This document shows, in pieces, positions 27,359 through 47,049 of a stretch of DNA of 64,000 bases. Numbering within the stretch: position 1 is the first letter of the stretch; every line of letters starts with the position of its first letter. Source of the stretch: Tunturiibacter empetritectus (lineage in GTDB: Bacteria > Acidobacteriota > Terriglobia > Terriglobales > Acidobacteriaceae); assembly GCF_013410875.1 (NCBI RefSeq), contig NZ_JACCCU010000001.1, positions 992,001-1,056,000 of the forward strand, given 5' to 3'. A program made the translations under genes and the position numbers. The notes beneath the pieces were generated by a model. That model searched no databases and had not been told where the DNA came from. It was given only the letters and a program-made list of their open reading frames with translations.

Positions 27359-28582
27359 CTAGTACTTTGGCAGGGACGGGTCGATCTTGTCTGCCCAGGC
27401 GAGGATGCCGCCGGTTAAATTCGATACGTTGGTGAATCCGGCTTGTTTGAGGGCGACCGCGGCTCTCTGGCTGCGGGCGCCGGACTTGCAGTGGACGACG
27501 ATCTCGCTGTGTTTTTTGTCGGCTAATTCGGCGGAGCGAAGAGCTATTTCGCCGACCGGGATCAGCGGTGCGCCGAGGTTTACGATCTTGTATTCGTGCG
27601 GCTCGCGGACGTCGAGGACGAAGACGTCTTCCTTGGCGTCGAGCTTGCGCTTCAACTCCTGGACAGAGATCTGCGGGATGCCATCGACGACTGGAAGATC
27701 GCTGACTGCCTTATCGCGGGCGACTTCGAGAGGACCGACTTCGCTGGGCGGAGTGATGCCGCAGAACTGGTCGTAGTCGATGAGTTCGGTCACGGTGGGA
27801 TTGGGACCGCAGACGGGGCACTCGGGATTCTTGCGCAGCTTGAGAGTGCGGAAGCTCATGCCGAGGGCGTCTACGAGTAGCAGGCGGCCGATTAATGGCT
27901 CGCCGATGCCGAGGATCAGCTTGATGGTCTCGGTTGCCTGGATGATTCCGACGAGGCCGGGGAGAATGCCGAGCACGCCGCCTTCTGCGCAGGAGGGGAC
28001 GAGGCCCGGCGGTGGCGGCTCGGGGTAGAGGCAGCGGTAGCAGGGGCCTTCCTTGGTGCCGAAGACGCTGGCTTGTCCCTCGAAGCGGAAGATGGAGCCG
28101 TAGGCGTTGGGCTTACCGAGCAGGACGCAGGCGTCGTTGACTAGGTAGCGGGTCTGGAAGTTGTCGGTGCCGTCGGCGATGACGTCGTAGTCCTTCAGAA
28201 TCTCGAGCGCGTTGGCGCTGGTGAGCATAGTGTTGTGTTTGATGACTTTGACGGTGGGGTTGAGGCCCTTGAGCATGATCTCGGCGGAATCGACCTTGAG
28301 CTTGCCGACGGTCGCGGTCGAGTGGATGATCTGGCGCTGCAGGTTGCTGGCGTCGACGGTGTCGAAGTCGACAAGGCCGATGGTGCCTACACCTGCGGCC
28401 GCGAGATAAAGTGCGAGAGGTGCGCCGAGCCCACCGGTGCCGACGCAGAGTACCTTGGCGGCCTTCAGCTTCTGCTGGCCCTCCATCCCAACTTCGGGAA
28501 GTATCAGGTGCCGGGAGTAACGGGCGATCTCATCATTGGAGAGCTTCGGGAGTTCTACGGTCTCTTCTATTGCTGTTGGCAT
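27359..28582 (-). CDS. MoeZ-like adenylyltransferase/sulfurtransferase (E1 domain plus rhodanese)
   Basis: The 407-residue protein starts at the ATG at 28582, preceded by GAGGAAAAG. The N-terminal ThiF/MoeB domain (about 10-265) has GTGGLGAPLALYLAAAGVG for ATP, NLQRQIIH, and zinc cysteines in CYRCLYP and CPVCG. The C-terminal rhodanese (about 300-405) has VLDVREPHEY and the catalytic cysteine in VVHCKSGARS. Such fusions activate the C-terminal glycine of a ubiquitin-fold carrier and load it with sulfur. It sits about 100 bases downstream of the CysO-like gene on the same strand, so that carrier is the natural partner; it may also serve molybdopterin or thiamine synthesis. Confidence 0.92.
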   Translation of the reverse strand: MPTAIEETVELPKLSNDEIARYSRHLILPEVGMEGQQKLKAAKVLCVGTGGLGAPLALYLAAAGVGTIGLVDFDTVDASNLQRQIIHSTATVGKLKVDSAEIMLKGLNPTVKVIKHNTMLTSANALEILKDYDVIADGTDNFQTRYLVNDACVLLGKPNAYGSIFRFEGQASVFGTKEGPCYRCLYPEPPPPGLVPSCAEGGVLGILPGLVGIIQATETIKLILGIGEPLIGRLLLVDALGMSFRTLKLRKNPECPVCGPNPTVTELIDYDQFCGITPPSEVGPLEVARDKAVSDLPVVDGIPQISVQELKRKLDAKEDVFVLDVREPHEYKIVNLGAPLIPVGEIALRSAELADKKHSEIVVHCKSGARSQRAAVALKQAGFTNVSNLTGGILAWADKIDPSLPKY

Positions 28583-28680
28583 TGTCTTTTCCTCTGCCTC
28601 ATGTAGAGGCGTCAAAAAACCTTCATCTCGTAAAATCGTCTTCGAACCGATTTCCATAGACGGTTACAAATAGGAAAATT

Positions 28681-28968
28681 TTAGAGTCGACAGCTCGTTC
28701 CGCCGGCGATGGAGGGGATGATCGTGAGTTCGTCCGCGTCGGTTGCCGGGGTCTCTTCCTTGTTTGGGAGGTAGCGGATGTCATCGTCGTTGAGATAGAC
28801 GTTGACGAACGAGCGAAGCTTGCCTTCCGGGGTAAAGAGATGGGGCTTGAGTTCAGGATATTGGACGGTGAGCTGCTGAAACACCCTGCTGACGGTTGTT
28901 CCCGCGACGCTGACGGTCTCGAGTCCGCCGGTGTAGGCGCGCAGCGGGGTGGGAATGTGAATGTTCAT
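28681..28968 (-). CDS. CysO/MoaD/ThiS-type ubiquitin-fold sulfur carrier with masked C-terminus
   Basis: The 95-residue beta-grasp protein begins MNIHIPTPLRAYTGG and carries FVNVYLNDDDIRYL and ADELTIIPSIAGG, close in layout to mycobacterial CysO. In active carriers the diglycine is the last residue pair. Here residues 89-90 are followed by TSCRL before the stop, so the carrier must be trimmed before adenylation. The overlapping upstream gene encodes a JAMM protease able in principle to do that. ATG and upstream TGA overlap (ATGA), showing translational coupling. Role: donor of thiocarboxylate sulfur to CysM; a role in molybdopterin or thiamine is the alternative. Confidence 0.88.
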   Translation of the reverse strand: MNIHIPTPLRAYTGGLETVSVAGTTVSRVFQQLTVQYPELKPHLFTPEGKLRSFVNVYLNDDDIRYLPNKEETPATDADELTIIPSIAGGTSCRL

Positions 28969-29486
28969 GCCTGACCTTTCTGAGTTTGCGCCGCTGCTTC
29001 GGCGACGTTAGGGGCGATGTCGATTTGAATTGGTTGGTCGTCGAAGTTCTTGTCGTCCTCTCCTGTTCCGCTCAGCAGAAAGGAGTTTGTCAGGACAGCT
29101 TTGCCCTGTTCAACACTGGTGATGATGTACGAACAGCCGAGCCAATGAGCTTCGGCGAAGTCGGTCTTGGACCACTGGGCGGGATGGTCGGGATGCGAGT
29201 GATAGAAGCCGACGATGTCCAGACCAAGGCCGCGTGCCTGGCGCTGGATCTTGACGAGCTCCTGGGGGGCGATGTGGTAGCGGTTGTGGGCGGAGTCGGT
29301 GCGGGTGTTGCCGGCGCGGACGATCTGCTGGACGTAGTTGACTGCCGCAGCGCTATTGACCGCCACAGTGCCATTGTCTTCGCCAGCGATGTTCTTTCCG
29401 AGCAGGACGCCGCAGCACTCGTTCGGGTAGGTCTCTTCGCCGTGGGCGCGGAGGGCTTCGTAGTCAGCGTAGTGGATGCGTAGCAT
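28965..29486 (-). CDS. JAMM/MPN+ metalloprotease, Mec-like
   Basis: The 173-residue protein starts at the ATG at 29486 with GAGGG nine bases upstream. The full JAMM zinc motif is present: Glu23 in NECCGVLLG, then His96-x-His98, Ser106 and Asp109 in YHSHPDHPAQWSKTD. In mycobacteria the homologue Mec releases cysteine from CysO. In other pathways JAMM proteases remove residues after a carrier's diglycine. Here both duties are possible. The gene begins five bases after cysM and overlaps the carrier gene by four. The C-terminal tail (about 145-173) is acidic, then Ala/Gln-rich. Confidence 0.92.
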   Translation of the reverse strand: MLRIHYADYEALRAHGEETYPNECCGVLLGKNIAGEDNGTVAVNSAAAVNYVQQIVRAGNTRTDSAHNRYHIAPQELVKIQRQARGLGLDIVGFYHSHPDHPAQWSKTDFAEAHWLGCSYIITSVEQGKAVLTNSFLLSGTGEDDKNFDDQPIQIDIAPNVAEAAAQTQKGQA

Positions 29487-29491
29487 CTGGG

Positions 29492-30427
29492 TTAGCCCTC
29501 CTGCCAGAAGCGTTCGCTCATGTACTTCTCTGCCGAGTCGCAGAGGATGGTGACGATGACGGCCTCGCGTCCAGCGCTGGCCTCCTGCTCGCCAATCTGC
29601 AGGGAGGCTGCGACAGCGGCAGCTGCGGAGATTCCAATCAACAGGCCTTGATTGCGCGCCAGATCTTTCACCATCTCGTAGGCGGTTTCGGTGGGCATGT
29701 CGATATTCGCGTCGGCGAGCGATGGGTCGTAGATGCGCGGCACGATCGCGGTCGCCATGTGCTTCAGGCCTTCGAGGCCGTTGAACGGCGAGTCCGGCTG
29801 CATCGAGACGCAACGGATCGACGGGTTCAGCTCCTTCAGGCGGCGGGTTGTCCCCATGAAGGTGCCGCTGGTTCCCAGGCCCGCGACAAAGTGCGTCACC
29901 TGGCCTTCGGTCTGCTCCCATATCTCGTTTGCGGTCGTGCGGTAGTGCGCCTTCCAGTTCTCGTCGTTGGAGTATTGATCAGCGTAGTAGTACTTGTCCG
30001 GCTCGGCTGCAGCGAGCTCTCGTGCTTTGCGGATTGCGCCGTCGGAGCCGTTGGCGGGATCGGTCCAGAGGACCTCTGCTCCGTAGGCGGCGAGATAGCG
30101 TTTGCGCTCAGGCGAGACGTTTGACGGCATGCAAAGAGTGACGCGGAAACCCAGTGCAGCGCCGAGCATGGCGTAGGCGATACCAGTGTTGCCGCTGGTG
30201 GCATCGAGCAGGCCGCGTGTGTCGCTGAGGAGGCCTCTGCGCTGTGCATCGGTGACGATGGCGGAGGCGGCGCGATCTTTCACCGAGCCGCCCGGGTTCG
30301 CCCATTCGGCCTTGCCCAAAATCTGGACTCCGGGCAGATGAGCATTGAGCCGCTCGAGCCTCACCAGGGGAGTGTGGCCGACGCGGTCTAGAATGCTTGT
30401 TCCAAACGGTTTGAGGGTGGCGATCAT
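29492..30427 (-). CDS. cysM: Cysteine synthase, CysM type
   Basis: This 311-residue fold-type II PLP enzyme has Lys50 in NPGGSVKDRAAS as the cofactor lysine, ATSGNTGIAYAML for the substrate loop, GLGTSGTFMGTTRRL for phosphate binding and ISAAAAVAA near the end. It replaces an activated serine side chain with sulfur. The neighbouring sulfur-carrier and JAMM genes suggest protein thiocarboxylate rather than free sulfide as sulfur source, as in the mycobacterial CysM-CysO-Mec set. It is the first gene of the operon, 104 bases from a divergent hypothetical gene. Confidence 0.94.
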   Translation of the reverse strand: MIATLKPFGTSILDRVGHTPLVRLERLNAHLPGVQILGKAEWANPGGSVKDRAASAIVTDAQRRGLLSDTRGLLDATSGNTGIAYAMLGAALGFRVTLCMPSNVSPERKRYLAAYGAEVLWTDPANGSDGAIRKARELAAAEPDKYYYADQYSNDENWKAHYRTTANEIWEQTEGQVTHFVAGLGTSGTFMGTTRRLKELNPSIRCVSMQPDSPFNGLEGLKHMATAIVPRIYDPSLADANIDMPTETAYEMVKDLARNQGLLIGISAAAAVAASLQIGEQEASAGREAVIVTILCDSAEKYMSERFWQEG

Positions 30428-44025: not shown

Positions 44026-44101
44026 GCTGGCGTAGCTCAGCTGGTAGAGCATCTGATTTGTAATCAGAGGGTCGGGGGTTCAAGTCCCTTCGCCAGCTCC
44101 A
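44026..44101 (+). tRNA. tRNA-Thr (anticodon TGT)
   Basis: The acceptor stem GCTGGCG pairs with CGCCAGC, the anticodon arm is TCTGA-TTTGTAA-TCAGA, and the T arm contains GTTCAAGTC. CCA is encoded. It is the first of the four-tRNA group before tuf. Confidence 0.97.
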
Positions 44102-44291
44102 GTTTCAAGCAGCGGGAAAAGAAAGACGGATTTGGTTGTACTGCTTGCCGTTCTGGCTATGCAGACCTCCTCTTCATTCTTCAAGGTCATTCCTTCAAGG
44201 GTGAGTACGCGCCCGATTCGCGGTTTAGAATCGAGGTGCGGACTTGAGAGATTGAGATGAGGGCTGCGCGCTGGAGTTCAAAGCAGGATGT

Positions 44292-44378
44292 GCACAGGTG
44301 GCCGAGTGGTTAATGGCAGCAGACTGTAAATCTGCCACTCTTCGAGTTACGGAGGTTCGAATCCTCCCCTGTGCACCA
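44292..44378 (+). tRNA. tRNA-Tyr (anticodon GTA), long variable arm
   Basis: The acceptor stem GCACAGG pairs with CCTGTGC, the anticodon loop is CTGTAAA with GTA, and a long variable arm and encoded CCA are present, as expected for class II tRNA-Tyr. Confidence 0.97.
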
Positions 44379-44417
44379 TAAATTTTGTACTGCGGTCGTG
44401 GAAGGTTGCTGTAACTG

Positions 44418-44600
44418 GTGAGTGTTGTGGATCTGAGTCCGGCAAGCAGCGGAAGGATGTGGATTGCGCTGGTTGTACTGGGGTTGTTGGGGATAGCGGT
44501 CTGGCAGACAATGGAGCCAGGCAAGTATCAGCAGCTAACCTGGATCCTGTTAGGTTTTTTTGCCTTTCGTGTCATACTCGGACGGTTGCGTTCGCGGTAA
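44418..44600 (+). CDS. Small predicted membrane protein
   Basis: The 60-residue protein from a GTG has two hydrophobic segments (about 14-30 and 41-55) joined by a short polar loop and ends with LRSR, a positive-inside arrangement. No family is recognised, and the Shine-Dalgarno is weak. It lies between tRNA-Tyr and tRNA-Thr and might be part of the tRNA transcript or a chance frame; the membrane pattern argues for a real gene. Confidence 0.5.
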   Translation: MSVVDLSPASSGRMWIALVVLGLLGIAVWQTMEPGKYQQLTWILLGFFAFRVILGRLRSR

Positions 44601-44650
44601 GATTGTTTGGTAAAAAGTTTTAGCAGATTGTTTGGCGTGTTTTGTACGAC

Positions 44651-44725
<75 letters not shown>

Positions 44726-44761
44726 GATCTTTGAAGTAAAGGGCTCGGTCCCTGCAGGCAA

Positions 44762-44836
44762 GCGGGAGTAACTCAGTGGTAGAGTCACAGCCTTCCAAGC
44801 TGTTGGTCGCGGGTCCGATTCCCGTCTCCCGCTCCA
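44762..44836 (+). tRNA. tRNA-Gly (anticodon TCC)
   Basis: The acceptor stem GCGGGAG pairs with CTCCCGC, the anticodon loop is CTTCCAA, and CCA is encoded. It lies 36 bases after tRNA-Thr, probably on the same transcript. Confidence 0.97.
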
Positions 44837-44885
44837 AAGATTGATAGATTGATAGAAGCGGTCAGGCAGTAGATCGCAGGAGAGT

Positions 44886-45206
44886 GTGTTGAGCAGTCTG
44901 TATCAGCAACCCATACTTACCGTCTCCGATCCGGAGACCTTCAACGCGGTGAAGACAGCAGTGGAAGCCTCCTTCTCTTCCGGTCGTGTCGCGGAGTTCC
45001 TGAAGTCGCTGGAGCGGTCGAAGCTGCGCATACGCGACTTCGAGACGGTTCTGAGCAAGGGAAACCTGGGAGTGACTGCGCAGGCTGAATACAACAAGCT
45101 GGGTAACTCCGACCAGGGCCAGATTCGCGAACTCTATCTCGCCAGCCTGGAGCAGGTTGCACCGGAGCTGCGAGAGAAGTTCTTCAAGTTGTACGCATAT
45201 TACTGA
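44886..45206 (+). CDS. Small helical hypothetical protein
   Basis: The 106-residue soluble protein is mostly helical (TFNAVKTAVEASFSSGRVAE, QIRELYLASLEQVAPELREK) and ends KLYAYY. AGGAG precedes the start, and both a GTG at 44886 and a TTG at 44889 are usable; the TTG has the better spacing. I do not recognise it. It sits between the tRNA cluster and tuf in a conserved neighbourhood. Confidence 0.65.
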   Translation: MLSSLYQQPILTVSDPETFNAVKTAVEASFSSGRVAEFLKSLERSKLRIRDFETVLSKGNLGVTAQAEYNKLGNSDQGQIRELYLASLEQVAPELREKFFKLYAYY

Positions 45207-45313
45207 GACAACCCCCCGCTTCTCAAGTTTAGTTTTTCGCTTTCAGTTTTTCGTTTGAAGTATTCACCTGAACCCCGGTGCACGCGCCGGCCAACACGAG
45301 GAGACGAGCAGTC

Positions 45314-46501
<1,188 letters not shown>

Positions 46502-46514
46502 AGATTCGAACGAA

Positions 46515-46550
46515 AGGCGGCAGGAGCAATTCTGCCGTCTTCTTGTTTTA
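46515..46550 (+). terminator. Rho-independent terminator after tuf
   Basis: AAGGCGGCAG pairs with CTGCCGTCTT (one G-T) around GAGCAATT and is followed by TTCTTGTTTT. Confidence 0.85.
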
Positions 46551-46774
46551 CTGCTTCCTTGTTCTATTTGGCGGCCACCGTTCTGGCAGTTCGGAGCCGT
46601 GGCTTTCCTGAAACACTGTTTTAAGAGATAATTTGAGAGGACGAGCGTGGCCTGACCGCTTTTCTTCCGTCTCACAATCAGGATTTGGTTGCAGGGGCCA
46701 TTGCCCTGTGTCGCGGCGTGTCACTACGCTGCTTGCCAGCCGAGGTGGCTGGCCACGTTAGAAGGAGATTTACT

Positions 46775-46924
46775 ATGCGCGAGATCATTACTCTTCAGTG
46801 CCCGGATTGCAAGAACCGGAACTACTCCACCACGAAGAACAAGAAGACGACCACCGGTCGCCTCGAGTTCTCGAAGTTCTGCAACACCTGCCGGAAGCAC
46901 ACGGACCACAAGGAAACGAAGTAG
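46775..46924 (+). CDS. rpmG: 50S ribosomal protein L33
   Basis: This 49-residue protein starts [19 protein letters not shown] and has GAAGGAGAT before the ATG. Two CxxC pairs (CPDC, CNTC) show the zinc-binding form. A small GCCAGCC-GAGGT-GGCTGGC hairpin (46735-46753) lies just before the ribosome site and may affect expression. Confidence 0.97.
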
Positions 46925-46973
46925 TCTCCAGCCGGATTCTGGGGTGAGACGCAGGTCTCACTCCGCACAGCCT

Positions 46974-47049
46974 GGGGGAGTAAGCTCAACGGTTAAACTG
47001 TCGGTCTCCAAAACCGAACTTCTCGGTTCGAATCCGAGCTCCCCCGCCA
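46974..47049 (+). tRNA. tRNA-Trp (anticodon CCA)
   Basis: The acceptor stem GGGGGAG pairs with CTCCCCC, the anticodon arm is TCGGT-CTCCAAA-ACCGA, and CCA is encoded. It lies between rpmG and secE, as in many bacteria. Confidence 0.97.

Follow-up and report, generated by a model that had tools for sequence, protein, structure and literature searches.

How does a sulfur carrier enter a biosynthetic pathway when residues follow its diglycine? The question is raised by an operon in a stretch of 64,000 nucleotides (nt) from Tunturiibacter empetritectus (Acidobacteriota, Acidobacteriaceae; contig NZ_JACCCU010000001.1, positions 992,001 to 1,056,000), which is called the window here and is numbered from its first letter. 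On its minus strand lie, head to tail, genes for a CysM-like cysteine synthase, a JAMM metallopeptidase, a CysO-like sulfur carrier and a MoeZ-type E1-rhodanese, in that order, and the carrier terminates as IPSIAGG-TSCRL, not with the GG end of the CysO-CysM-Mec carrier. We propose, with a probability of about 0.78, that this is a CysO-type cysteine route with an inactive precursor carrier, and that JAMM acts as the general sulfur-carrier maturase of the lineage. The proposal draws on the conservation of the masked C-terminus in the family and on the distribution of masked carriers relative to JAMM in the phylum. The features of the operon, with lengths in amino acids (aa), are:

27359..28582, minus strand: MoeZ-type E1 adenylyltransferase with a C-terminal rhodanese domain (Pfam ThiF 270 bits, Rhodanese 57 bits, both above cut-off)
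28681..28968, minus strand: CysO-like sulfur carrier, 95 aa (Pfam ThiS 43 bits, above cut-off)
28684..28698, minus strand: CysO masking tail TSCRL, five codons past the diglycine, with its Cys codon TGT at 28690-28692
28699..28704, minus strand: CysO diglycine, not C-terminal (from the translation)
28965..29486, minus strand: JAMM/Mov34-type metallopeptidase, 173 aa (Pfam Prok-JAB 81 bits, above cut-off)
29492..30427, minus strand: CysM-like cysteine synthase, 311 aa (Pfam PALP 232 bits, above cut-off)

Coordinates and Pfam matches bear out the gene order given in a preliminary description of the locus, in which the cysM, JAMM and CysO-like genes were packed together with a MoeZ-like E1/rhodanese gene next; its span of 28681-30427 is right for cysM-JAMM-cysO, with the E1 gene falling outside. 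Translation likewise confirms the carrier end that it reported, IAGGTSCRL, with five residues covering the diglycine. The stop codon of cysM is 5 nt from the JAMM ATG, the cysO ATG overlaps the JAMM stop as ATGA, and 98 nt separate the end of cysO from the likely E1 start at 28582, which has GAGGAAAAG ahead of its ATG (the longest open reading frame (ORF) starts at 28657). For the synthase, the top NCBIfam model is cysM, under its cut-off (337 versus 394 bits); the nearest solved relative is cysteine synthase B 2bht, and the CysO partner CysM 3dwg was matched too (1e-53). The JAMM protein, with solved relative 2kcq, retains the motif HSHPDHPAQWSKTD, which we take to fit the JAMM pattern HxHx7SxxD. 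For CysO the nearest relative among solved structures, best of 4 matches, is 3dwg_C (7e-17), presumably the Mycobacterium tuberculosis CysO; this chain and 4n6e_B, the two closest solved CysO relatives, both terminate at GG. The whole genome has one Prok-JAB (PF14464) match, the JAMM of the window, along with four ThiS-fold carriers and two ThiF-type E1s, and it encodes together a ThiS/MoaD-fold carrier, a CysM-type synthase, a JAMM protein and a MoeB/MoeZ E1. Its best cysE match scores 102 bits against a cut-off of 211, which is only suggestive of a CysM that would use CysO-thiocarboxylate and O-phosphoserine, as in the carrier-based route, since the same shortfall is seen in 6 of the 14 control genomes that have a match.

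Masking of CysO is conserved in the family and is not a local accident. In a sample of 120 family genomes, 94 had a CysO or CysO-like match, and the C-terminus was read in the 86 with a true CysO. The preliminary description had named homologues mostly ending in GG as the finding that would make the tail accidental; one of the 86 ends there, and in the other 85 GG is followed by one residue or more. These comprise 77 free tails of 1-32 aa (25 of them a single residue), seven in-frame CysO-E1 fusions, with domains Pfam-confirmed on the fusion of Acidipila rosea (L135), and one cupin-like fusion (L248 in genome G113), where CysO runs in frame into a 126-residue extension resembling the cupin of L277. 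Thus the conservation that the preliminary description sought in homologues holds for the mask itself and fails for its five-residue length and its sequence, the tails being 1-32 aa or whole proteins. In the window's own genus, 17 genomes were read, giving 16 free tails and one E1 fusion. Every one of the 16 free tails holds at least one Cys, [TK][SN]C is conserved in 9 of them, and TSCRL itself recurs in three further genomes, one of the same species. A set of 79 named loci, four without a readable CysO, gave 75 readable carriers, all masked and none ending at GG; some share assemblies with the family genomes, so this set is not independent. A fused CysO was also seen at L201, in a genome labelled Gemmatimonadota. 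In viral contigs 19 stretches fitted a search pattern, but no relative was among them.

Two side observations concern the fusions. At L277 (G061) a CysO-like carrier has a cupin domain in frame after GG by Pfam, and L248 is assigned by likeness to it. At L110, L367 and L374 (phylum genomes G210, G194 and G132) the domain order is CysO-rhodanese-ThiF and not CysO-ThiF-rhodanese, by Pfam on L110 and as judged from the start of the extension on the other two.

The mask is not peculiar to CysO. Four carriers were found in the window's genome and each has one, with tails TSCRL, CI, VGRR and V: ThiS ends GGG-V, MoaD ends GG-VGRR with MoaE next after it, and a second CysO-like carrier (L285, G000:C1:2340836-2341099, minus strand) ends GG-CI directly behind a PALP-family enzyme (Pfam) that we take to be threonine synthase. 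Residues after GG and a JAMM protein in the same genome, the features of JAMM-matured carriers, are both present here. Tails were found on 23 of the 29 family ThiS proteins that were at hand, which are not a random draw, and the reading frame of family MoaD often continues into a MoaE-length extension (MoaE Pfam-confirmed on L046). Outside the family, the ThiS proteins of L331, L332 and L333 have in-frame extensions of 258-265 residues, that of L331 being ThiG by Pfam, and their genomes (G126, G140 and G205) each have a strong JAMM match. As a separate observation, carriers of the L285 type in other genomes end at GG in 5 of the 7 read.

Masks were then compared with JAMM presence outside the family in 60 of 297 phylum genomes: 30 with a strong JAMM match (E <= 1e-20; JAMM+), 20 of the 69 with none, and 10 with a weak match. 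From the latter 30 (JAMM-), 25 were read (16 with no match and nine weak), three having no carrier match and two having matches that were left unread. The contrast covers 128 carriers, 85 in JAMM+ and 43 in JAMM- genomes. Masked carriers number 50/85 in the former and 0/43 in the latter (p = 9e-13 by carrier, Fisher, a value that is only a guide since the genomes are related); counted by genome, 29/30 JAMM+ and 0/25 JAMM- have a masked carrier. The sole JAMM+ genome without one, G180, had one of its three carriers read. With CysO-type carriers left out the proportions are 26/56 and 0/42, and the five families with both JAMM states among the genomes read (f7, f20, f25, f27 and f33) agree. In this phylum sample, therefore, masks are shown to be restricted to JAMM-bearing genomes. 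Of 17 good-quality family genomes without a CysO match, 16 retain JAMM, and a MoaD with a MoaE-length in-frame extension was read in nine of those 16. In the one that lacks JAMM, G103, the only carrier match is a ThiS with a GGG end.

Several observations count against JAMM as general maturase. The JAMM-bearing sister of G103, G046, has one carrier, likewise a ThiS with a GGG end, and it is unmasked, and 35 of the 85 carriers read in JAMM+ genomes are unmasked as well. G042 (98% complete, 6% contaminated) has a MoaE-length MoaD extension with no JAMM found, and the incomplete genomes G037, G068, G087, G107 and G118 (53-74%) have masked carriers with no JAMM found. JAMM does not always adjoin CysO (e.g. 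G027, G053). The JAMM+ and JAMM- genomes form related groups, so Fisher values overstate their independence. The masked-carrier interpretation of the preliminary description thus finds support in the mask and in its tracking with JAMM, and loses its specificity for the cysteine route, since ThiS and MoaD are masked too and JAMM persists in family genomes that lack CysO.

Enzymes of the E1 superfamily adenylate a free C-terminal Gly, and a masked carrier should therefore be inert until cut. In the mechanism that we propose, CysO would be made as an inactive precursor with its diglycine covered, and a cut by JAMM directly behind the diglycine would most likely free that end. The E1-rhodanese of MoeZ type would then adenylate and thiocarboxylate it, CysM would pass sulfur from CysO to activated serine, and the same JAMM would hydrolyse the CysO-cysteine adduct, releasing cysteine. 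JAMM would also mature ThiS and MoaD, and the MoaD-MoaE, ThiS-ThiG and CysO-E1 fusions. We infer the tail-cutting role of JAMM, the order of the steps and the cysteine release from gene content and carrier ends; one JAMM that both matures sulfur carriers and releases cysteine would be the simplest account. The chemistry may be close to what Mec already does. Cys is the first tail residue in 12 of the 77 free family tails, and there the bond to be cut would be the same Gly-Cys amide that Mec cuts; with a tail of Cys only, nascent CysO-Gly-Gly-Cys would be identical to the product of the CysM step, the CysO-cysteine adduct, so unmasking would call for no new activity. With JAMM present, masks could appear and change by drift, after which the lineage could no longer lose JAMM.

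Parts of this scheme have precedents. The preliminary description offered a JAMM that both trims and releases as an added step absent from the textbook pathway, and as a novelty this does not stand: in the HcyS/HcyD system of Wolinella, reportedly described by Krishnamoorthy in 2011 (a work cited in PMC5764234 and PMC6225789), the carrier HcyS is said to have one Ala after GG, and one JAMM, HcyD, to trim it and release the amino acid. There the product is reportedly homocysteine and the partner MetY, while here they would be cysteine and CysM, with longer and variable masks. In thioquinolobactin synthesis, a siderophore pathway without a cysteine-release step, the JAMM protein QbsD removes residues after the GG of the carrier QbsE. 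The operon type was itself described in 2006 by Iyer et al., who list Acidobacteria for it: their type 4c combines ThiS/MoaD, E1-rhodanese, JAB and cysteine synthase (PMC1779556, Table 1), the same gene set as in the window, and they raised the possibility that JAB releases carriers from fusions with other proteins (PMC1779556). C-terminal tails, a CysO-E1 fusion of this kind and poly-cysteine tails are not mentioned in the passages of that paper considered here (PMC1779556). Mycobacterial CysO-CysM-Mec+ with MoeZR has the same set of carrier, cysteine synthase, JAMM and E1-rhodanese, and its Mec+ hydrolyses CysO-cysteine (PMC3227635). The mycobacterial carrier ends at GG (chain 3dwg_C) while the acidobacterial one is masked, and, unlike in the mycobacterial pathway, the E1 gene comes directly after cysO in the window and is fused to it in relatives. 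In Deinococcus radiodurans, DRJAMM cuts a fusion of MoaD with MoaE so that a C-terminal Gly results, a step described as essential for activation (PMC8832034); it serves the molybdenum cofactor and not cysteine, although MoaE-length MoaD fusions are common in the window's family too. By analogy with DRJAMM and Mec+, JAMM is the natural and most likely candidate for cutting the tails. The operon type and the maturation of carriers by JAMM are thus known already; what is new is a masked carrier in carrier-based cysteine synthesis, and the occurrence of masks and JAMM together. Our search of open-licence PMC papers found none on CysO tails or poly-cysteine ORFs in Acidobacteria.

Other explanations concern why the tails exist, what removes them and what the carrier is for. 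Under a neutral ratchet, to which we give somewhat less than an even chance, loss of the stop codon after GG would cost nothing wherever JAMM is present, and random, functionless tails would accumulate. The absence of masks where JAMM is absent in the phylum sample agrees with this, as do the wide range of CysO tail lengths, the many one-residue tails and the lack, by eye, of a common motif in most CysO tails and in ThiS tails. Drift would, however, be expected to leave GG ends oftener than in one of 86 genomes, and neither the [TK][SN]C conserved in the genus nor the composition of the tails suits it. The CysO tails, in a point absent from the preliminary description, are rich in cysteine (77/540 residues, versus 8/540 in the same-length in-frame stretch past the stop; about 2% in the other two tail frames; 15.8 residues expected from base composition), and ThiS tails are not (3/113). 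They also favour the rare codon TGT (51 TGT and 26 TGC, versus 138 TGT and 715 TGC, or 138/853 TGT, in the E1, JAMM and CysM ORFs); in 14 of the 16 free genus tails the counts are 25 TGT and 2 TGC. Examples are CCCCCCL, SACCSCCPLL, CCWYCCCR and GCRCLGGCCCCPR; elsewhere the gap from cysO to E1 holds a free-standing ORF, for instance MPRYSACCCCCPSCCCR. These features speak for a different, rather doubtful possibility, that of a cysteine-codon sensor: ribosomes would pause on the rare TGT codons at low Cys-tRNA and alter E1 expression, and JAMM would later remove the tail. Such sensing, which we hold equally tentatively, would supplement unmasking by JAMM and not replace it. In its fuller form, which is if anything slightly less probable, the removable CysO tail, or the short ORF in its place, would be a ribosome-read cysteine sensor setting E1 output, which JAMM then erases; a regulatory leader could sit in a gene of the enzyme system at no cost because JAMM erases the sensor peptide.

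The position of the cysteine clusters was examined in 68 family genomes (the 86, minus 10 with no E1 within 600 nt and eight fused). At least 4 Cys per 10 residues were found between GG and E1 in 24/68 on the sense strand (nine in tails and 15 in separate ORFs) and in 3/68 on the antisense strand; a threshold of at least 3 per 10 was dropped as too loose (28 sense, 16 antisense and 9.2 shuffled, in 80 genomes). At 22 of 27 loci the cluster is 48-76 nt away from the E1 start. As a DNA pattern, CCCxxCCCR gave 16 matches in 15 of the 120 family genomes. Six are junction matches, placed where cysO gives way to E1 and 49-61 nt ahead of the E1 start; three of these six are also covered by a longer frame, which in one case is on the sense strand. 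The remaining 10 are covered by ORFs of 211-619 aa that use a different frame. The reversed control gave six matches, four overlapping those same junctions. Five consecutive Cys codons, searched in five genomes, occur 30 times in the window's genome versus four in the reversed control. Of 21 such places read, 14 fall within ORFs of 90 aa or more (two in the Cys frame itself) and seven do not: two at known E1 junctions, one before a peroxiredoxin gene, one before the gene of a putative ATPase, presumably of the type II secretion/PilT kind, and three others. At L394 (G053:C65), as an observation apart, a poly-cysteine short ORF, MRIGSARLCCCCCMAPECG, precedes the gene of a 1-Cys peroxiredoxin by 131 nt and is possibly another cysteine-responsive leader.

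A sensor also has a known analogue. Mycobacteria have leaderless polycysteine short ORFs that act as attenuators responding to cysteine (Canestrari 2020, through citations in PMC9094748 and PMC13236596). The cysteine-rich tails and ORFs here resemble them in placing runs of Cys codons ahead of a sulfur gene; unlike those attenuators, the tracts here lie within the operon and are partly fused to the 3' end of cysO. Much else makes the sensor doubtful. The window tail has a single Cys, although each free genus tail has at least one, and no run of Cys codons precedes its E1 gene; 44 of the 68 genomes lack a cluster at the threshold of 4 Cys per 10 residues; and stalling within cysO would delay CysO as well. 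Nor was a general RNA switch found: with the Cys tract blocked, the gain in accessibility of the E1 start across 27 loci was 0.77 versus 0.60 kcal/mol in shuffles, with 4/27 loci at or below 0.1. Two hairpins lie in the cysO-E1 gap of the window:

28634..28665, minus strand: hairpin AACCGTCT...AGACGATT followed by T residues, terminator-like by eye
28596..28610, minus strand: small hairpin G-CCTC...GAGGC, directly 5' of the E1 ribosome-binding site

In an alignment of six genus members the former has a 7-pair stem and a loop of 16 to 4 nt, with one pair broken in the window, one in G249 and the innermost lost in G204; neither hairpin has any pair changed on both sides in this alignment. Rfam matched only tRNAs in the window, none at the locus, and nothing in four other loci. 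Elsewhere in the window, at 44026-47046 on the plus strand, are five tRNA genes, four of them inside about 0.8 kb.

That a different peptidase trims the tail, with JAMM hydrolysing only the CysO-cysteine adduct, we consider improbable. JAMM cutting of tails is an inferred activity, and in M. tuberculosis a protease that the authors call unidentified cuts the MoaX fusion behind Gly82 (PMC4326299); yet another peptidase would leave unexplained both why ThiS and MoaD are masked in JAMM genomes only, in the contrast made without CysO-type carriers, and why JAMM is retained without CysO. Less probable still is a ubiquitin-like modifier, in which CysO would be conjugated to proteins and JAMM would deconjugate it, as with archaeal SAMP1 and desampylase. 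These two are the top NCBIfam matches, but at 50.2 of 60 and 78.6 of 130 bits both are below the curated cut-offs, and the modifier reading was rejected on these scores; the operon with cysteine synthase and rhodanese-E1, and CysO 3dwg_C as the nearest solved relative, also speak against a modifier.

We therefore return to the precursor carrier matured by JAMM. One odd C-terminus leads to a testable rule: in the Acidobacteriota read, carriers are masked where JAMM is encoded and, with few exceptions, not otherwise. If the rule holds, JAMM would be the enzyme that matures prokaryotic ubiquitin-like carriers in general, comparable with the enzymes that mature ubiquitin precursors, and this role would account for its retention in genomes that have no CysO. 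For annotation, ThiS, MoaD and CysO proteins without a GG terminus are to be expected. The tails with their cysteine codons hint that a biosynthetic protein may have a regulatory element built into it; if the sensor is real, the peptidase would free the 3' ends of sulfur-carrier genes for fusions, leaders and drift.

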